From assembly GCA_030407005.1 (NCBI GenBank), contig JAUDYN010000009.1, positions 620,001 to 684,000 on the forward strand: DNA of 64,000 bases. Reading direction: 5' to 3'. The notes under the pieces were generated by a model, which saw only the letters and a program-made list of their open reading frames with translations, was not told where the DNA came from and did no database searches. The DNA comes from Desarmillaria ectypa (taxonomy: Eukaryota > Basidiomycota > Agaricomycetes > Agaricales > Physalacriaceae). Positions 8,629-34,375 of the stretch are shown piece after piece. Position 1 is the stretch's first letter, and every line of letters begins with the position of its first letter. A program made the position numbers and the translations under genes.

Positions 8629-11475
8629 TCAGTCCATCACCCCCCGAACCGGTCGTACGTCGGGGGTCGTACTAGACCTATAGGTATCCGTTCCGAGTTC
8701 TATACAATTTTGTTCGATGAGAGCCTTGAGATCTGCGATGTATTGGGGTATCTCGAGGGTACGGAAGGCCGTAGGATCAGGAAAGTCTGCCTCTTGAAGA
8801 CTCTGCAAACATCGAGGCCAAACAGGGAGTGCGAGTTGATGAAGTGCTGTGATGTTTCCCTGAGTGAGTAGAACAGCACAAGCTGTGTGAAGGGACCCTG
8901 GCTCATGGAGGTATTCCAAAGATCTCTGGCGTATCTGAGGATCCACTTCCCCAGACGACAGCCCTGCGACAAAGGCGCCTATAAGTTCTGATAGACCCCA
9001 GGTAGTGGCAGGGATGGAGACAGTGCTGAGGCTCCTAGTGAACGAGTCGAAGAGCCGCTTGTCAACAAAATGAGCAAAGGCCGCATTTATGGTGGATGAA
9101 TGCTCAAATAGAAAAATGATCGGTTCAGCCGCTTCTGTGGTGTAATGTAAGCTATCGGCAGAGTACTTTAGGGGTGTCGATAACCATGCATCATCCTGGA
9201 AAGCCGTGGACGCGAATTTTGAAGACAACTCTGCAGGAAAGCTATCTACAGGAGGGCGAGGGGATACGCAGCTGAGTACTCGAAAGAAAGCGATCAAGGT
9301 GATATGCTGATCTTTAACGAACATTGAATTGCTGCCAACGCCGCACGAGTCCGATAAAACCAACACGTAGAGTAGCTTTAGGACGGCGGAGCGATTGCGG
9401 TCAAGGGGAATGGGTGCTACATTGCCTTCAGGTTGATGGATTCGATATTTTTCGACACCCATATAAACTATAATGCTTCGTAGGACCGCACTGAAAAGTG
9501 TTCCCAGAGAAGAATCGAGTGTATTCATCCTGTGTATCGAAGGAGAACCTGCTATGGCCAAGAGGAAACGAACTCGACGATCGTTGGGTTCAGGGAGCTG
9601 AGATGTGGGATCGTTATCTTGGACCACAAAATCGGCACAGCCTTCAAGCAAGATATGGCCGATGCATACGAATAGATATTCGAGGATGGCTATGAAAAGA
9701 GTGTCCGCACGATCACCTGTTGGTATCATCGATATCGGCAATCCTTTATCTGGATAGAAATGGGGAGAAAGTTCACAATCGGAATGCCAGTAGATTGTCG
9801 GAAGTGCATGGAATAAAAGTTCATACACTTCCCGGTCGAGGGGTAGGATATTGGAAAGAAGACAACCCCATACGATGGGTTGCAGACGTAGGCTCTGACT
9901 GTCTGGCGGGGTTCGCAGAGTAGCTACAATTAGGTCACGGGCCTTTTGGCTTCCCCGTAGGTTTCAGCAGCCAAAAGCTCTGCACGAAGATCTGGAGCCA
10001 ATTGGTCCCGCTTGTTATATGTTCCAATAAGGACATCTCAAAACTGAAAGCGAAGGTGTGCACGGATACAGGGGTCCATTTTGCTTGTGTCAACAAGAGC
10101 ATCGCTTCGATGGGCATCAAATAGAAGTTCTTGGAGTGTAAAGGCGCAGACACTTGGGAGCCCTTCTGCATAACGTTGTAAGGAGTTCACAGATCGGATC
10201 GGTAAAGCACCGGTTGACTCTGCAACGATTCCTTGAACGCTAGGGTTGGATGACACGGAGAACAACTAGGACAAGGTGTGCGCGTCCGTTTCATCGGCAC
10301 TCAGCTTAACAGCTCCACGCTCTGCTTCTCGAAGTGTACGAATGGAAGACTTTTTTGGAACTGGTGAGGAGGAGGACCAGTATCTGGAAATCAGAGAGAT
10401 GACTGAAGTGAAGAAACCGTCATGGGCAACATAAGTGTAGAGGGAAGATGTACTGCGACAGCGGCGTCTTGTATGGGAATGAGGGGTGTATAATGGGCAG
10501 GAAGTTGGTGACAAAGTACGCAGCGAAGGATATGAATGTGATAGACCCAACGACGGATGCAATCGACACCTGTAGCGGAACCAGAAAAACAACCAGACCC
10601 ACTAAAAAGGCGCAAAGCGACACGCTCATCAGGACTGGCAGTAGTCCAATAATGAAAGCCACGCGCCACTTCTACAGTCCCATGTATCGGAATTGACGTA
10701 CATAGCATTTATCCTTAGGCGTGCCCGATGGAACTGCCATGTATTGATGGATCCATTGTTTCGTCAGGACAGCGAAGAGCGCGGTAGTCAGACTGAATAA
10801 AAGACTGGTGAACCACAGTCCATTGACCAATGAATCAGAAGTCGTGGGACGAAAGTCTAAGAATGGAGTAAGGCCTGAACGAGGAGCGTCGAGGGAACCA
10901 TTGGCTGCTGCGCGCTGGACATCGATGAGCTCGAACAGTAGTGACGATATGACCTGACCGTAGTCGACTTGAAGGCTCTGCGACGTCTGTGCGACGAACG
11001 TAGTGACCACCGCAGAAAAAGACCTGCCTGTTCGTCTATTAACGAAGGTAAATTGGATTTATTAGCATTTGTATTTATGAAAACTAGGAAAACATCCAAT
11101 CCGTCCCTCCATCCCTCCACCATCTCAATGTCAAATCCAGCGTACTCCTCAAGGTATGCTCTCTATACCCTAGCAGCAGGCCCTAGTTCTTCATACCGCT
11201 TGTCTTCGGGGAATTTTTATTCGTAGTCGAATGGATCATTCCCTTAATTTTCAGTGGGCTTCATGACGCTAAGGCGAAGTTTAATAACACACACCCTTGA
11301 CTAGATATTCGCGTGTCCTCACGCCCATCAGTCCTCTAGTAGATTTTCTTCTTTTGCGCGACGAGTAGTAGGTCGAATTCTCAACCTCAGGCCCCTGGTC
11401 ATTGTCGGACTGAGTGGCCCCTTCAGCAGATTTCTTCTCCCTTGCATCGTCGGATACGGCCGCAGAGGAAGACAT
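8629..11475 (-). pseudogene. Broken DUF6535 membrane protein gene (copy D1)
   Basis: The start is MSSSAAVSDDAREKKS at 11475. The DUF6535 core is recognisable: FVAQTSQSLQ, then VNGLWFTSL, KQWIHQYMAVPSGTP and IIGLLPVLMSVSL. Four hydrophobic helices are expected, followed by a ~450-residue C-terminal helical region ending in the open 399-codon segment 8629-9828. The gene is dead. There is TAA at the position of Q/E before the first helix, TAG for Trp in the conserved VWRxYLEE phrase, a lost base in AGLFSAVV, and TAG for Trp in the ALSWL phrase near 10270. It is about 70% similar by eye to copy D2 and oriented opposite to it. The family's function is unknown. Confidence 0.8.
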
Positions 11476-22690: not shown

Positions 22691-25563
22691 ATGTCGTCTG
22701 AGCGTGTCAATACGTCCGCTCAGGGGCCGCAAGCAGAAAATATAACCTACCAGTCTCCTCGAAGTCGCAGGCAGTCAAGGCGTGGACTACTGGGCATCAA
22801 GAGCCGCGATTTTATCATGAAAGGTAATATTTTCTGCCCTCGAACAAAGCAAAGTCTTACAAGCCAAGGAAACGATTCCTTTGACTACGAACAGAAGCTC
22901 CCGGAGGACAGGCAATATGAAGAACTGGGGCCAGCAGCCCGGTATGGAGGACATACCTCGAAGAATGTGCAGCGTTCGACCATGAATGATAGAAGGATGG
23001 AAGGATGGCCTAGATGTGTTGCTCGTCTTTGTCGGTGCTAGTACCATACGTACTGCTTCCTCGCTAACCCGCACCAGGCCGGTCTTTTCTCAGCCGTGGT
23101 TACGACCTTCGTTGCGCAAACGTCGCAAAGCTTACAGCTCAACTATACCCAGGTCACGGCGTCGCTTCTGTACGAACTGATTAGCGTCCAACGAGCGGCT
23201 GCAAACGATGCACTTGTGGACGATATTCCTCGCTCAGGTCTCACGCCTTTCTCCGATTTTCCACCAGCAACATCCGACTCGTGGGTCAACGGACTCTGGT
23301 TTACAAGTCTCTCTCTCAGTCTCGCCGCCGCACTGACCGCGGTACTAATGAAACAATGGATCCATCTGTACATGGCGGTTCCATCTGGAACGCCTCGCGA
23401 CCGTTGTCGCGTACGCCAATTCCGATACATGGGTCTGCAGGAGTGGCACGTGCCTTTCATCATTGGACTCCTTCCTGTCCTGATGAGCACATCTCTTGGA
23501 ATTTTTCTTGCTGGCCTGATAATATTTTTGGTGCCCCTACGTCTAGCAATCACATCCGTAGTCGGGGCCATCACGTTCACTGTATTCGCAGGATACACAA
23601 TCACTGACTTTCTTCCCATTCTCTATCCATCATGCCCTTACAAAACTCCACTCTCCCAATATGTTTTTTTCTCTTTACACACATATCATTCATAATGACC
23701 TGCTCAATTGGCTCATCTTACCCATCTTCAAACCGCAAATCTCAGAGCAACATCGTGTTCGTACTCTCAGAGATGCGGAACAGGATGTTGTCAGACGTAG
23801 TGCTGAGAGCACGGACGTTTATGCCCTATCATGGCTGTCCTCGATGTCATCCAATCCCAGCGTCCAAAGCATTATCGCTCAGTCCATCGGTGCTCTGCCA
23901 CTAAAGTCTGTAGACTTATTGAAGCAGCACATGAAGGGTGTTTCTCTAGTGTGTGTCGAGGTTATCAACAATTGTGTTGGTACTCGAACTGTCCTTGAAC
24001 TAACTCAACAAGCCAAGGTCGAGCGTTTGATTCGCACCCATCTTCGCGTCCTAAGACGCGACGATAAGACATGGCTCTACATATCAACGGCACTTGACCT
24101 GGGTTACATCCAGCCGGACCTGTTTGCTGGTATCGTTGCCTCTACGCCTTTCTGGATAAGAGGCTATGAGGCTCGAGAAGTAATCAGAAGGAGTCTTTCG
24201 GGCTCTCCTGCAGAACGGCAATCGCGTTTGCAGCCGATCGTTTGGATCAACCTCCTTCGTAGTTCCTTGAGTGCTGGCGGAGTGGGGCTGAGTCGTAGTT
24301 TTCTAGATACCCTCCCGAATTACTACTGGAGACAGGACTGGATTTGTCCTGCTCCAGTGTTCGCGGTCCATGGCGAGGCACCCCCATTCATCTGTGATTC
24401 GGTTGATCACAACGACGCTCTAACATTCCCAGAAGCTGTGCGAAGCTACATTTACCCTTATGTGGCTGAATCTATCATCTCCTATCATCCGCCTGTGGAA
24501 GTTCCACGGGATTCAAATTATATTCTCCCTGAAGACCGACGGCTGAATTTTCTTCTAGCTATGATCACACCCTCCTTTTCATCACGGGCCAGTATCCAAG
24601 CTGCTCTGATGAACAAAATGATGGAATACATCGAAATTAACCTGAATGTTGACATGCTTCCGCTCGGATCACTACCCTCCTCAGGTCTAGACAGTAATCG
24701 CCATGCAGCCCTGGAGGCGCTGTACTCGCTCATCCTCTCCGACGTGTTTGGGAATGCTTCAGTTCTTGGATGGGCATGGACAGCGCAACGCGCTACGCGT
24801 TTTCCTGCGACTTATTACTTCCACGAGTCCACTTCCCCGCCATTTTTCAGATGACGAGTGGTGTACACTGGCTGTAACTGCAAAGTTCATCCATGTCGTC
24901 TTTGGAATAGGTTCAACCGATGATTGGTCATCCAGTGATCAGTACCATGACTTGCGGACGGTATCAGAAATAATGGGGTACCTCTTCAAATTTAGCCCCA
25001 CTGCTAATGAGGCATATTCGATCTTTGTGAAAATGTGCTATTTCGATGTCGTAGAACGCTCGTCGCAGCTATCCCTGCCGAGTGAAAACGTTCATGGCTT
25101 CATTGCTGGGCTGGATTCTAGTCTACTAGATCCGCACATACGCCAAGAGGCCCTGGATTACTTGCATGAACCCCGCAGTCTTATCATTGCCTGCACTGCC
25201 TTATTCCAGGGTTCTGATGAAAGCACCCTCCGGCAACTGGCCTTGATTCGACCCAATGACCCTGCGTGGCCTGTGTGCTTGCAGCATTTCGATTCAGTTG
25301 TCGCTATCCCGCAACCAGACTGTCTTTCGGCTATCAGCAGAATTGTTTCCCCGGCGTTCATTGCAGGGGAACCTAGTCCGACTCATGGCACGCTGCCTGA
25401 AACGCGGATGCCTCACAGGGATAATTCCTTACCACAATCTCTATCACACGGCGATACATCTGGAAACATATTGAACCGAATTATCACGTTCACAGGACAG
25501 TGGCGACGCAAGGACAAGTTGCTTGGAGATACGGTATCTTCGTCATTGAATGGGAATGTGTGA
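22691..25563 (+). pseudogene. Broken DUF6535 membrane protein gene (copy D2)
   Basis: The start is MSSERVNTSAQGPQAENITY. The core runs FVAQTSQSLQLNYTQ, VNGLWFTSLSLSL, KQWIHLYMAVPSGTPRDR and a helix pair around IIGLLPVLMSTSL. A long helical C-terminal region follows, up to 25563. The best preserved of the three copies, it still has four frame breaks by my reading. One base is missing before VWRTYLEE, another in the HEMIEGW phrase near 22985, there is a break at the T7 run near 23663, and another near 24775 before GQRNALRVFLRL. Few stops occur within the correct frames, so it died recently or some breaks are sequence errors. Function of the family is unknown. Confidence 0.75.
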
Positions 25564-25859: not shown

Positions 25860-26480
25860 CTAGTCTGCCGGAAGTACCCAAGTAGGTTTAGTGAAAGGCT
25901 CTTCTCTGTCCATCATATGATGGAATAGCATGCGCTTTGTCTTCCCCATCTCAATGTACTCTTCGAGAATGCGATATTGATGTTGAAGTACCAGTGGTAT
26001 ATACGAATCCTTCAACTGATTGTCAGATGACAAGTCAAAGTATTGGATATCAAATACGCATCTGAAGACAGTACACTGCCAATTCTCGTCGAGTAGAGGA
26101 GTTGGCATCTAGGCCAGCCTGTAGTTTCGGTACATCGCTATATGCAACATCCCCTTTCAGTATCCCGGGCTCATCGCACAGCAACTTTGAGGCGACTTTT
26201 CCAAGCCCGTAACTGCGGAGTTTGAACTTGTCATGATTGCAAGCAGAGTGGCGGAACATATCAAGCACCACTTTGCCTGGAATGGAAACCATTCGGTCCA
26301 TCCAGCGTTTATGCTCTAAGCTATACCATATTTTCAGTTTCGAGGTGTTGTGAAAAACGGGGGATGAATAGATCAGTTCGTTCCCAGTTAGTACATGCGC
26401 GGTGTCAGGCCAATAGTATTGCGCTTGGCTGAGCTCTGCAAACGCATGCAGATGTACACTACTGTACCTACTTATATACT
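25860..26480 (-). pseudogene. Fragment of a DNA polymerase delta exonuclease domain (copy C)
   Basis: Only the last third of the exonuclease module is present. MVSIPGKVVLDMFRHS is followed by KFKLRSYGLGKVASKL and the Exo III region RRELAVYCLQ. After an intron relic come DSYIPLVLQHQYRILEEYIE and the stop at 25860. The intron donor that is GTGCGC in the intact copy has become ATGCGT, so the Exo III motif can no longer be spliced together. The piece ends where the intact copy ends, without a polymerase palm. It lies in tandem, same strand, with copies A and B. Confidence 0.75.
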
Positions 26481-26595: not shown

Positions 26596-28824
26596 TTAGA
26601 TTGTCCCGAAATTTTTTGACGGGCCTTTCCATTTCAGTACGAGTAGCACCTCCGGGAAACGTGGATAGTAAGTTGCCAGTGGAAGCGGCGATGGGCCACT
26701 GGAAAATAGCCTGAGATCTGAAGCTACAAGAAAAGAATAAGTGCAATATCTAGCAGCAAAATAAAACCGGCTACCCATGGCACCTGACAGGTGGTTGTCC
26801 TCGTGGACAGCAAATCTGAAAAGCGCCAAGGCATCGCGGGACTCACAACCAACAACATCGATCGACGTGACAATATTGTACTTATGCATAAGCTTCAAAG
26901 GCACCTTAGCATCCTTTATGAATCCTAACGTTAGTCCGTGCATCCAAGTCGCAAAGACTAAGACGATTGTCACCCGGAGACAGTACACCGCTAGTTCGCG
27001 GCGGGCCGCATCATTCGCGTTCGGACCCTCTTGCAGTCCAGGTATACTCTCATAGCTAAGATCTATCTTCTGTGAATCGGGGCCACCATAAAGAAGACGT
27101 TGCACGACATTTTTCACACCATAACTCAGGAGCTTAAATGTAGAGTGATTCGAGAGAGATGTCGAAATAAGTCCAGGACGACTCGGCCTGGTATCTGGAC
27201 ATTTTTCCTTGTCTGAATCCATATTTATCAGAATGAAAGAAGTAGTTGGCATGTTTCGTCAAAGATCCTACGAAATAGTCATGTCGACAGGTTTGGGAGG
27301 GGGACGCTACCTCTTCGTACCTTTGGAGCGACTGAGTTCCACATTAAAGATGGCCAGCTTCTGAGCCCTCTCGATGATGAACCACAGATCAAAATTCAGG
27401 ATGTTAAAACCTGTTAGAACATCGAGACCCACATCGTGATGAAGTCCTACCGAGCAGCTCACTCTCAGATCAGTATGAATGAACGTAGACGTCTTCGATC
27501 GAATCACACGACTTAAGCGTGAAAATGACACGCAGAAAGGGTTCAGACTCTCCTGGAAGATATAGTCAGATCTCAGGAATCATTCGATCTCTCGAAACGC
27601 TCACCCATTCGAATGACCATGTTCGAAATCTGAATGATAGGATGAATAGACGGTACCGATTTGTTCTGTGTATCTTACATGCATTCGATGTCGAAGAACA
27701 GAACTCTCAGCGGGGCATTACCACGGCCCTCGCAGGCCTCCACCTCATTGTGCCTGTGGAAGAATCAATACAAGGAACATGACCCGTTGCATTAGCAACG
27801 ACAAATGTACGAGATTTCAATCCCGATTTGAGGCCTACATTTGCGTTCAGCGTCTGGAATGACTTGGTATTTTTTGGTCGGGAACTTCACCCAGCCACAA
27901 GTCCTGGTAACTGTGCATGAACGTAAGAACGGAATCGAGCCGTGGCATCTAGCGAATCTCATGCTCTACCAAGAACCACGTCGGGTAGTCTACGTTTGCT
28001 TCGACAGCTTCGTAAGGACACGTTGCATGGAACATTCGTGGAGAGAGAACGATGGAAGTCAGTTGAAGTAAATTGCTAGAGATGTTCAGTGAAAAGACTC
28101 ATCTCGAATAGTGCCAAGACTTCCTATGTCTTCGAAAGTTATTTTGACAAGCATGCGCGTCTTTCCCACCAGAAATTTGTTAAGCACCTTCAGCTCTGGG
28201 TGGTATCCTTGAGCGCCCTATACGAATTGCCGTTCAATAATAAGAATCATGAAAGCAGCGAGAAGCATGCGTCAAGAAATAGTTCCAGCGCATCGAGGTC
28301 CTTGTCGCTGCTGTAGAACTCTGAATACTTGGGACGGGCATAAAAGTAGGGGGGAAAACCACTGATGAAAGCTGATACGCTATTTCCGGTCTGTAAACCA
28401 CGAATTGAGACACGTTACAAACTGGATAATCCAAAGAGAGCTTGCCTCGGTAGAGCCTGTAATGATAATAATCAGGTGAGCAGAGTCAGGTATCTCGTGA
28501 ACATCAACAATCTGAATAACTATCCAAGCATTAATATTGCAAAGCTGAGAGCATAGATAAAGCGTACCAAGGTCGTCTGTCTCTAGGTCAAGCTCCGGGG
28601 ACGCAGGACGTTTTAGCATTTCCTTGAGAGCAGGTCGACTCTTGACTTCATGCTCCAGTTTCTGCCGCTTTGAAGAAGGTATAGGGCCTGATGGTGGTGG
28701 GGAAGCATCGCGCTTTTCTGCAGAGCTAGAAGAGAGCATAAATAGAGTAAAGAGTGAGTTGAGTGGGAGGAGATACACCTCCCCCAGTAAGCTTTGATTG
28801 ATCCCAGGCATCAGTTCGTTTCAT
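26596..28824 (-). pseudogene. Decayed Pol-delta-like exonuclease gene (copy A)
   Basis: The start MKRTDAWDQSK at 28824 parallels MKRNNTWDL of the intact copy. The landmarks follow in polymerase delta order: DIHEIPD-like (VDVHEIPDSAH), GFPPYFYARP, EANVDYPTWFLVEHE, APLRVLFFDIEC (Exo I, intact D-x-E), HPIIQISNMV, GLDVLTGFNILNFDL (Exo II) and RRELAVYCLR plus DAKVPLKL (Exo III). At least two splice donors are altered (GC and AT in place of GT near 28230 and 27960). Stops and frameshifts interrupt the frame, for example before the Exo II segment. The end again lacks a polymerase domain. It is a pseudogene of the same exonuclease-only design as copy B. Confidence 0.8.
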
Positions 28825-30200: not shown

Positions 30201-32250
30201 TCAGTTGATGATGACTGATTGGACAGACCGTGCTTTAGCGAGCTGGACACCTAGATCCTCAAGCCAAGGCGTCGGAGCTAACAAATTTGCGAAAGGAACC
30301 TGTTTCTCCTTACCCTTCCTCAGGTAATCCTCCAAAATATGAAGCCTATTCAAAAGCTGCAGGGGCACCTTCGCATCCTTCATATAACCAAGTATGATCA
30401 GTAATCTTGATCAAGAAGAATACACGATGCGCACCTGCAGACAGTATATCGCTAGATGGCGCCGACTAGCGGAGCCTTCGTTCTGGAGCTTTGGTATATC
30501 TGTGTATTCCACGTCTAACTTCTGTGAGTCTGGATCATCAGAAAGGAAGTTCTGCGCGACGTTCTTAAGAGAGTAACTGTCAAGTTGGAACCGGGTGTGG
30601 TTCCGGGTAAAATGCCGGTACAAGTCCAAGACAACTCGGCCTTCGACTTCAACATACTTACCAGGGCGGCCATTCTTATAGAACCCCTTGGCACGGAACA
30701 ATTCTTCATAGAAATATGGTTCCGACCAATTCATTGAAGATTCTGAATGACAAGGATGAGTACGTTTCGTTTATCCAATATGTGATTCGCACCTTTCCAT
30801 CGGCCCAAGTTCAAATCAAAGTCTGGCATCGTCAAACGAACCCGATCTATGATGTACGAGAGGTCGAAATGCATGATGTTGTAGCCTGTGAGCACATCGG
30901 GGTCGACAGCGAGTATAAAATTCTGCCATGCCAGAAGCATTTCCCTCTCGGTATCGTATGAGCATACATAAACGTCAACATCGATGGGATCACACGAATC
31001 AAGAGTGAAAATGACGCGGAGAAATGGATTCGCGTCTCCTATAATATTATTTATTAATATCAACTGACACCATTTTGCTTGAACCGACCTGGGCGAGAAA
31101 CCATGTTTGATATTTGAATGATTGGATCCGTCAATGGTTTCGAATTCCTCGCCTTGAGATTAAACAAGGTTTCGAAATCAAAGGATAACACTCTCAATGG
31201 AGCCGTGGGGTAGTCATCATCACAATTTGTTACAGCGTTGTGTCTGTAAATGTGGTGAACAATATTATTGGTCGATCAAATGAAGAAGCCGACTTACGAG
31301 ATCAAGATCTCAACTTGAGAGTGAGATTTGGCGTCACTGTCGGCCACGATTTTGTACTTCCCGGCAGGAAACCTGACCCAGCCGCCCAGTCCTGGTAGCT
31401 ATCAAACCTGAGAACATCTCATATAGTAAGAGGCAGATCTGTCACCTCGTGATCTACTAGAAATCGAGTAGCAAAATCCACATTTGCTTCATAGACATTA
31501 TATCGGGCACCCAGAAGTGTATTTTGGACGACACAAAGACTTTCTGAACCCTCGAAAGTCAACTTGAAGAGCATACATGCCTTTTCAGTCACGCCCGTGA
31601 TTACTTTGGAAACAATTTCTATGTTGATTACGCCAGTAGCGGCCTGCATCGGTCATGTCCAAACGTTTCATTGATAGTAAGCGAAAGAGGACGCACATTA
31701 AGGAGGGCATGAAGTGCCTCCATTTGATCAGATGAGCCAAAGGGGCCAGATTCGTTAGGTAGAGCATAGAAATATGGCGTAAAACCAAGGATACGAGCTG
31801 TCACGCTGTTCCCTCGCTGTATTTCCTCTGTTCAAGGTAAATGTAGCGTGCAGTTCACTAAATAGCATACCTGTGTAGAACCAGTGAGAATCAAATCCCC
31901 AGAGTTTGGTACTCCATGCAAATCAACGATTTGAACAACTGATAGTATGAGCTTGTCAGCCTGCATTGTACTTCCACGAATGAACAGGGTACATACTTAG
32001 GTCGTCCTTCTCAGCATCCAACTGCTGACGTGGAGGGCGTCGTTGTACCTCCTCAAGCGGGGCCCTTACCCTCATCTGCCACTCCAGTCTCCGTCTCTTC
32101 TGTGAGGGCATGGCATGCGTTCCTTGGCTACTACCCCTAGTCACGGTGCTACACGTCGAATGTGGGTGAGAAATGAGCGCCAGCACAACCAAACATGGCG
32201 CACCTCGTCCCGGTCTGTCCAATCAAATCCCAGGTATTATTTCGTTTCAT
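30201..32250 (-). CDS. Stand-alone 3'-5' exonuclease derived from DNA polymerase delta (copy B, polymerase domain absent)
   Basis: Ten exons splice in frame to 526 residues with no stop: 32250-32204, 32148-31997, 31938-31871, 31825-31697, 31643-31446, 31398-31298, 31243-31089, 31038-30793, 30742-30435 and 30377-30201. The N-terminal half follows the Pol delta N-terminal domain (GFTPYFYALP, YEANVDFATRFLV, RFPAGKYKIV). Exo I is RVLSFDFET (Asp254, Glu256). Exo II is GYNIMHFDL (Asn337, Phe341, Asp342). Exo III is YCLQD (Tyr465, Asp469). All metal-binding acids of a DnaQ-like fold are kept. The protein ends 57 residues after Asp469, so no palm, fingers or zinc modules exist. Expected activity is 3'-5' DNA exonuclease. 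Its role is unknown. SHMT diverges 265 bases upstream. Confidence 0.88.
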
Positions 32251-32515
32251 TATTCGTGAATAGCGTGGAAGATAAATTAAGAAAGGTTGGTATAGGTTGT
32301 GGTGGTCCGATCGATATCAAAAAGGACACGCGACTCGAGTACCACAGAGGCACCTTACATAAGGCAGTGTACTTCCCGTTCGGAGATACCCGGCCGATCT
32401 CCCACCATTTTTTTTTTCGCTCACCATGATTCGACTGCTCCTCCCTCGACCACCACTATCTCGGTTACCCTCCTTCCCTCCATACTCCCGTTTCTCCCGT
32501 CTAAGTATCAGAAAC
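32251..32515. promoter_or_regulatory. Divergent intergenic region exonuclease / SHMT
   Basis: There are 265 bases between outward-facing starts. A T9 run (32411-32419) followed by pyrimidine-rich sequence leads into the SHMT start, as is common in fungal promoters. The two genes may be co-regulated from here. Confidence 0.4.
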
Positions 32516-34375
32516 ATGGCCACGTCATCGACGCCTGAATTCGTAGGTCTGGTCTGAATGCAGAAGACGTGGTCTGATTCTCTATTGCAGAACAAAATGC
32601 TTTATGCCCCCTTGGCACAGATCGATCCAGAGGTGCAGAACATCATCGATAAGGAGACATGGAGGCAACTTTCTGGGCTGGAGTTGATTGCTTCAGAGGT
32701 CGGTTGTTCTTCGTAGGAGTAAGGGGTTCATGACGCTGAAACACATAACAGAACCTTACCAGTCTGTCTGTCATGGAGGCGAACGGGTCCATCTTGACGA
32801 ATAAGTACTCCGAGGGTCTCCCATCGGCCCGTTACTATGGTGGTAATGAATACATCGATGAGCTTGAGAACCTGTGCCGCAAACGAGCACTTAAAGCATT
32901 CAATCTAGATCCCGCACAGTGGGGTGTTAACGTGCAGCCCTACTCCGGAAGCGTCAGTCCTGTACCTTTTACATTTTTATTTATTATTAACTCCCCCCCC
33001 CCTCCCCATCTATAGACAGCCAAGTTAGTTTACCACATCATTACCTGACTTTTCTCTGACTTTACTGCAGCTTCGCCGCATTTACCGCTCTCCTCCAACC
33101 TCAAGATCGTCTCATGGGTCTTGGTCTTCCCGACGGCGGCCATCTCACTCATGGTTACTATGTCCGTATTCATTCAATTCATGTTAAGGGAAGCTACCTA
33201 ATGTTGCTGAAACTAACAGACGGCTAAGAAGAAAATGACCGCGTCTTCCATCTACTTCCAGTCGCTACCTTATGCTATCACTCCCGACACCAACCTCGTT
33301 GACTATCCTGCCCTCGCTGCCCAGGCCAAGATCTTCAAGCCAAAAATGATTGTCTGTGGTGCCTCTGCGTACCCTCGCGACTGGGACTACGCTGAGCTTA
33401 AGAAGACGGCGACAAAGGAAGGTGCTTGGCTACTATGTGATATGGCCCACACTAGCGGTCTCGTCGCCGCCCAGGAGCTCAATAGCCCCTTCGACTATTG
33501 TGACGTCGTCACTACTACGACGTAAGACCCTTCTACTGCTGTCTTCTGTTTGTGTGTTGACCTATCCTGCTAGTCACAAGACTCTCCGTGGTCCTCGTGC
33601 TGGTTTGATCTTCTTCCGCAAGGACCTCGAGAACGCCAAAGATCTTGAGAAACGCGTCAACGAGGCCGTTTTCCCTGCATGTCAAGGCGGTCCCCACAAC
33701 AATGTATGTCTTCCAATTGTTTCATTGCTCCCGTACCCATCTGCCGTTAGACTATTGCCGCTGTCGCCACTGCCCTCCTCCAGGTTGCTCAACCCGCATT
33801 CAAGGAGTATGCTAAGCAGGTTGTCCTCAATGCTCGTGCCCTCGCGGCATCCCTCTCGGCACACGGCTACAAACTCCAAACTGGCGGAACCGACAACCAC
33901 CTCGTTCTCTGGGACTTGCGCCCTCTCGGCTTGACTGGCAGCAAGATTGAGAAGGTCTGTGACCTCATGGGTATTACCATCAACAGTCCGTTCTTTTCTC
34001 TTTCATTGTCTTCCATCCCGGCTGATTGACTCACTAGAAAACGCCGTTTCTGGTGACGCCTCTGCCCAGGTTCCGGGTGGTATTCGCTTAGGCACATCTG
34101 CGCTGACGTCGCGTAACATGCTCGAGTCCGACATGAAGGTCGTCGCCGACTTCTTGCACCGAGCTGTGCAGCTATCGCTAGTCCTACAGAAGGAGGCCGG
34201 AACAAAGATGTTGAAGGACTTTGTTCGGGTTGCTACGACGCAAGAAGAGGGCAAGGAGGGCTTCGCCAAGGTTAAGCAGCTGAGGGATGAGGTTCGGGAG
34301 TTCGCTAAGCAGTGGCCACTCCCGGGTGTGGATGCAGCGATGTTCAAGAAGCCTGAGGGTATTCATGAGGATTGA
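32516..34375 (+). CDS. SHM2: Serine hydroxymethyltransferase, cytosolic
   Basis: Nine exons join in frame to 479 residues: 32516-32542, 32591-32698, 32752-32952, 33016-33023, 33071-33161, 33220-33521, 33574-33703, 33751-33985 and 34038-34375. The enzyme moves the serine hydroxymethyl group to tetrahydrofolate, giving glycine and 5,10-methylene-THF, with PLP as cofactor. Diagnostic phrases are [57 protein letters not shown] and the PLP-lysine site [14 protein letters not shown] (Lys ~248). The start MATSSTPEF has no mitochondrial presequence, so the cytosolic isoform is inferred. The fourth exon is only 8 nt. The symbol follows yeast usage for the cytosolic enzyme and is tentative. Confidence 0.95.

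Follow-up and report, generated by a model that had tools for sequence, protein, structure and literature searches.

In B-family replicative polymerases the proofreading exonuclease normally acts within the polymerase. The N-terminal 388-residue fragment of T4 DNA polymerase (PDB 1noy), which comprises the N-terminal and exonuclease parts of a B-family enzyme, is reportedly active as an exonuclease alone, and WRN and p53 are exonucleases that are not known to derive from a replicative polymerase. According to section 14 of PMC6153641, separate exonucleases such as these two, which act apart from a polymerase, are able to remove 3' mismatches, and passages of PMC3985635 describe COG3298/PF10108 as predicted stand-alone exonucleases of the B-polymerase type. 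Here we analysed a stretch of 64,000 nucleotides (nt) from the agaric Desarmillaria ectypa, related to the honey mushrooms (contig JAUDYN010000009.1, positions 620,001 to 684,000; hereafter the window), in which a gene on the minus strand, here called gene A, encodes an N-terminal domain and a B-family exonuclease homologous to Pol3. From its sequence we consider it rather probable, at roughly 60%, that gene A is a partial DNA-level duplicate of POL3 surviving as an autonomous 3'-5' DNA exonuclease.

Gene A resembles POL3/POLD1 in domain order, in eight intron positions, in its catalytic residues and in the predicted fold of its orthologue, and differs from it in having no palm, fingers, thumb or C-terminal part. 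The T4 fragment shows the same cut and matches gene A in sequence (E 9e-5), but it is a laboratory fragment of a phage enzyme, whereas gene A is a natural gene. COG3298/PF10108 forms a separate cluster, and PF10108 had no match in gene A at E up to 0.001; PF03104, the B-family exonuclease, is its sole Pfam domain, matched over the full profile (1-242) with 151 bits against a cut-off of 23.

Rebuilt from the sequence, gene A spans 32250..30201 (minus strand), with ten exons separated by nine GT-AG introns (47-58 nt each) and a coding length of 1572 nt including the stop codon, giving a protein of 523 amino acids (aa). The stop codon (30201-30203) falls within an exon and not at an exon border, and there are no stops, frameshifts or broken splice sites that would mark gene A as a pseudogene. 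An earlier first-pass annotation, made from the sequence alone, was right that ten exons splice in frame and that the Exo I, II and III motifs are present, but its length of 526 residues has to give way to 523, as indicated by the deposited D. ectypa protein P0001 and the 524-aa Armillaria ostoyae orthologue, P0002, and its motif residues have to be renumbered; its length and numbering would both fit an exon 4 acceptor nine bases upstream. Gene A is no chance reading frame, since P0001 is identical to it over residues 29-516 (488 of the 495 residues compared) and since it matches PF03104.

When aligned to yeast Pol3, the motifs of gene A (Exo I D251-F-E253; Exo II N334, F338 and D339; Exo III Y462 and D466) stand opposite those of Pol3, which we take to be its metal ligands. 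Our reference for conservation consisted of 33 POL3 rows, two long-branch rows having been left out, and all seven motif columns are the same in gene A as in 33 of these 33. Across the exonuclease region 102 columns are at least 95% invariant in the reference, of which gene A retains 68, and 49 are retained in all seven full-length proteins of the family to which it belongs (subfamilies A, B and C, see below), including all seven motif columns (p 0.005). Among 15 rows labelled A, B, C or X, one is without the Exo I columns and one has an A in place of the tyrosine of Exo III; on visual inspection, the odd partial model P0180 accounts for both. Past Exo III comes the tail that in POL3 connects to the palm, and here conservation is lost (6 of 25 columns in gene A, 0 of 25 in all seven). 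A PCNA-binding pattern had no match in gene A, nor in the A. borealis POL3 used as control, and is uninformative for that reason.

The absence of a polymerase domain, proposed in the first-pass annotation, was borne out. A query with the palm and C-terminal part of POL3 (residues 541-1081) had no match in the window better than chance, the best E being 2.1, and this query contained the POL3 C-terminus, so that the cysteine-rich C-terminal region has no match in the window either. For the palm/fingers/thumb family PF00136 there was no match on contig C32 among the 21 matches listed. With both searches empty, a polymerase domain joined through downstream splicing, the contrary case named in that annotation, is rejected.

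A full-length POL3 lies elsewhere in the same genome, on contig C30. Its model, guided by the A. borealis protein, has 25 exons and 1081 aa, with the palm motifs present by eye, and 170 of 491 aligned residues (35%) are identical in gene A. Eight of gene A's nine introns match POL3 introns in both alignment column and phase, the exception being an intron in the N-terminal leader, and eight of the nine POL3 introns in the shared span are retained in gene A; one POL3 intron was re-read by eye as GC-AG before this comparison, since the A. borealis protein fits. The ninth is missing from gene A, and at that place the neighbouring B pseudogene shows a gap of about 70 bases. Because the introns were kept, gene A must have arisen by copying the first half of POL3 at the DNA level, and a retrocopy origin is ruled out. 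A viral or mobile-element polymerase was rejected as well: the top four VIA-align rows and the top four sequence matches were cellular Pol delta, with viral polymerases lower (a viral structure library lay outside the search), and the introns match those of POL3.

Close relatives of gene A were found only in Armillaria, Desarmillaria and Guyanagaster, using a single-protein and a nine-sequence profile search that were both limited to proteins of 0.55-1.75 times the query length with shared exact words. The single-protein search, in which the best 7997 candidates were scored, gave 58 proteins, of which ten named and one unnamed are close relatives; the profile search gave 41 and added two named relatives (P0179 and P0180) and two unnamed fragments (P0182 and P0193). 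In a tree of 50 rows that included P0186 of Phlegmacium glaucopus, the family forms one clade (100/100) nested in Agaricomycete POL3, with three supported subfamilies, A (that of gene A), B and C, and a polymerase domain is present in none of the members examined. Orthologues ending at the same point, which the first-pass annotation had thought worth seeking, do exist: three A orthologues share their last alignment column with gene A. By an eye count, the B proteins run one residue further in five cases out of six, P0180 ending earlier, and the three C proteins end about 12-15 residues before gene A's end.

In A. ostoyae the locus numbers of A and B follow one another directly and their contigs are equal in length, as are the contigs of B and C in D. 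tabescens. The window carries A, B and C in this order, head to tail, which looks like one old tandem array. The clock given in PMC5264464 dates the armillarioid ancestor to 50.8 (30.0-72.3) million years and the separation of Desarmillaria from Armillaria to 41.3 (24.5-59.1) million years. Since A and B are found on both sides of this split, and C in Guyanagaster too, the array would be at least as old as the split, provided that inheritance was vertical. These sequences indicate a real and old set of POL3-derived exonuclease-only genes, apparently restricted to the armillarioid lineage, and we found no account of it in the part of the open-licence PubMed Central literature covered by our survey. 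In a tree of 47 rows, without P0186 and two long-branch POL3 rows, the family moved to the base beside the animal outgroup, a shift suggestive of long-branch attraction. Constraining it with four Physalacriaceae POL3 rows cost 0.06 log-likelihood units (p-AU 0.51), and with three, leaving out Hymenopellis, 3.67 units (p-AU 0.35); neither constraint was rejected. As regards the date of the duplication, the tree appears to favour neither placement.

P0186 (534 aa) comes from a distant agaric, is Pol-delta-like with PF03104 only, and by eye agrees with the family in its catalytic motifs and in where it ends. Its branch is very long, and in a tree without the family its end branch measured 9.5 and its position lacked support; the same truncation may have happened independently in this protein. 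As an exonuclease-only case, Cytidiella P0181 (722 aa) was rejected: part of PF00136 still matches it and it groups with the POL3 of its own species.

Selection on gene A was judged by protein-level proxies and a neutral simulation (300 runs for each of four mutation settings). Gene A and its A. ostoyae orthologue are identical at 436 residues and differ at 87, with one gap column, and under each of the four settings none of the 300 neutral runs gave replacements as conservative as these (z 4.3-4.8). No stop was observed, against 4.5-5.6 expected, and only 0-4 of 300 neutral runs were stop-free; the A. ostoyae sequence is a gene model and could conceal a lesion, of which its length and alignment show no sign. 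Furthermore, changes in A are rarer at residues invariant in B and C (13 of 156) than elsewhere (64 of 343, p 0.003). These are signs of constraint at the protein level. Raw comparisons of gene A gave 120 differences from A. novae-zelandiae, with a mean BLOSUM of 0.08, and 104 from A. luteobubalina, with a mean of 0.00. The first-pass annotation had argued for selection from the open introns of gene A beside two decayed neighbours. Both neighbours are indeed decayed, B with stops and frame changes and C with a large internal loss, but open introns alone are weak evidence because B too was intact until fairly recently; selection stands on the proxies against A. ostoyae, and not as a general property of subfamily A, in which two of the four proteins seem frameshifted.

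The best of the alternatives, although an unlikely one, is that gene A is a relic on its way out, a member of a once functional family whose D. ectypa copy is under little or no selection and has not yet been hit. Several observations count against a maintained exonuclease, and three of them (the dead neighbours, the apparent frameshifts and the weak correlation with POL3 conservation) point to a relic. In the D. ectypa genome the other two members of the array, B and C, have already died. P0004 of A. luteobubalina and P0003 of A. novae-zelandiae, two of the four subfamily-A proteins compared, look frameshifted when read from the proteins, with gene models that bypass the lesion, sequencing error being possible. 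The broken A. luteobubalina copy may also be transcribed still, as the 100% matches of P0182 and P0193 suggest; P0182 begins within the stretch that is seemingly frameshifted. Changes in A correlate weakly with POL3 conservation (Spearman 0.10, p 0.03; B 0.15, C 0.18-0.22, POL3 itself 0.56 over its whole length), and branch lengths put the protein's rate of evolution at several times that of POL3. A vital role is made less likely by the absence of working B and C genes in D. ectypa and by the seeming loss of A in two other species, and the selection tests span the whole time since the split, so that a very recent relaxation is compatible with them. On the other side, over a split of about 41 million years gene A and its A. 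ostoyae orthologue show no stop, a single gap column and conservative replacements, and every catalytic residue is kept. Given the positive A. ostoyae proxies together with the apparent frameshifts in two species, gene A seems to have been maintained along the lines to D. ectypa and A. ostoyae and to be dispensable in others.

We think it improbable that the protein is a non-catalytic or dominant-negative regulator, which would bind 3' ends or polymerase partners and restrain polymerase delta, its nuclease being incidental. The N-terminal domain is kept besides the exonuclease, with 25 of 38 POL3-invariant columns in gene A, which speaks for this reading; across the family, however, all seven catalytic-motif columns are kept, as against about half of the other invariant exonuclease columns, which points to catalysis. 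A fused protein, as in the 726-aa model P0001, is very improbable: P0001 extends from gene A into the downstream B copy (P0001 against window 32166-26600), but the part linked in this way is a pseudogene with stops and frame changes and three orthologues end where gene A ends, so that the model is probably a gene-finder fusion, i.e. an annotation error.

In the reading that we favour, the POL3 duplicate lost everything past the exonuclease domain and persists as a separate gene, its product most likely being an autonomous DEDDy-type 3'-5' DNA exonuclease. D251, E253, D339 and D466 would hold the metals and, with Y462, take nucleotides off single-stranded or frayed 3' ends. Without palm, thumb, C-terminal parts or clamp contact, it would be expected to work in trans and distributively, attacking 3' ends that are free or frayed from outside and probably in the nucleus, and trans proofreading or 3'-end trimming is the role we consider most likely. 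An NLS-like (nuclear localisation signal-like) KRRR sits near the position of the POL3 KKRK, which makes nuclear entry plausible. The C proteins (P0008, P0009 and P0179) have arginine-rich N-termini that are poor in acids (2, 1 and 0 among the initial 50 residues), and their helical moments are 0.35-0.40, whereas those of A and B are 0.21-0.24; these presequence-like features suggest a mitochondrial branch of the family.

As to expression, three proteins of relatives, encoded on short contigs of source 'lgn', run unbroken across the intron sites of these genes, and the A. ostoyae model P0007, close to one of them (P0005), has 22 additional residues exactly at the expected intron site. The simplest reading is that these contigs represent spliced RNA, and by analogy gene A is presumably transcribed and spliced.

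Such a family, with only the exonuclease half, all catalytic residues and an origin apparently predating the Desarmillaria-Armillaria split, would be a natural test of whether this half is useful in trans. Passages of PMC4351087 and PMC6153641 report that yeast polymerase delta proofreads in trans for other polymerases, and A. gallica is cited in parts of PMC7403608 and PMC7385547 for unusually few somatic mutations. It is conceivable, although we rate the chance as low, that the armillarioid genes form a system dedicated to proofreading in trans, with nuclear A and B and possibly mitochondrial C, which removes the 3' mismatches left by other polymerases and contributes to the very low mutation rate reported for long-lived individuals of Armillaria; the link to mutation rate is speculation.

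Table 1. Exons of gene A, neighbouring features, contigs of relatives and other loci. Positions are those of the window unless a contig is named.
Feature	Position	Strand	Remarks
Gene A exon 1	32204..32250	-	start codon at 32250; N-terminus MKRN.TWD common to A. ostoyae P0002
Gene A exon 2	31997..32148	-	splice model; NLS-like KRRR at residues 33-36
Gene A exon 3	31871..31938	-	splice model
Gene A exon 4	31697..31816	-	acceptor 9 bases downstream of the one matching 526 aa; backed by P0001 and P0002
Gene A exon 5	31446..31643	-	splice model
Gene A exon 6	31298..31398	-	splice model
Gene A exon 7	31089..31243	-	Exo I (D251, E253)
Gene A exon 8	30793..31038	-	Exo II (N334, F338, D339)
Gene A exon 9	30435..30742	-	runs to Exo III Y462
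Gene A exon 10	30201..30377	-	Exo III D466, tail, stop codon
Subfamily B copy, pseudogene	26836..28824	-	two in-frame stops and three frame changes within exons
Subfamily C remnant, N-terminal part	26597..26852	-	matches residues 1-66 of P0179
Subfamily C remnant, 3' part with Exo III	25881..26346	-	matches residues 420-557 of P0179
Serine hydroxymethyltransferase gene (PF00464)	pieces 33217-33522, 33751-34026; ATG 32426 by eye		Pfam match
P0005	1816 nt contig		517 aa; unbroken through intron sites
P0182	1806 nt contig		206 aa; 100% to A. luteobubalina
P0193	915 nt contig		188 aa; 100% over 173 residues to A. luteobubalina
Pol alpha-like copies, contig C30	2962199-2963816 (full 1618-base query), 2933198-2934523, 3014444-3015770		1326 bases at 100% and 1326 at 98%

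In the decayed C copy Exo I and Exo II are gone, and only the two listed parts of the 557-aa relative still match. Near 18.9 kb another fragment resembling C (E 0.007-0.018) was judged to be a chance match. On its other side gene A lies head to head with the serine hydroxymethyltransferase gene, 175 bases (window 32251-32425) separating the two start codons, and a shared promoter is possible.

Elsewhere in the window, the long open reading frames at 23562-25563 (plus strand) and 8629-9963 (minus strand) seem by eye to be paralogues, with RLQPIVW and YLHEP stretches in common; no Pfam family matched their parts 23562-24851 and 8632-9963 at E up to 0.01. Contig C30 (L019 region) has three copies, within about 82 kb, of the later portion of another gene for a B-family polymerase, Pol alpha-like by eye, which reflects either recent duplications or an assembly effect.
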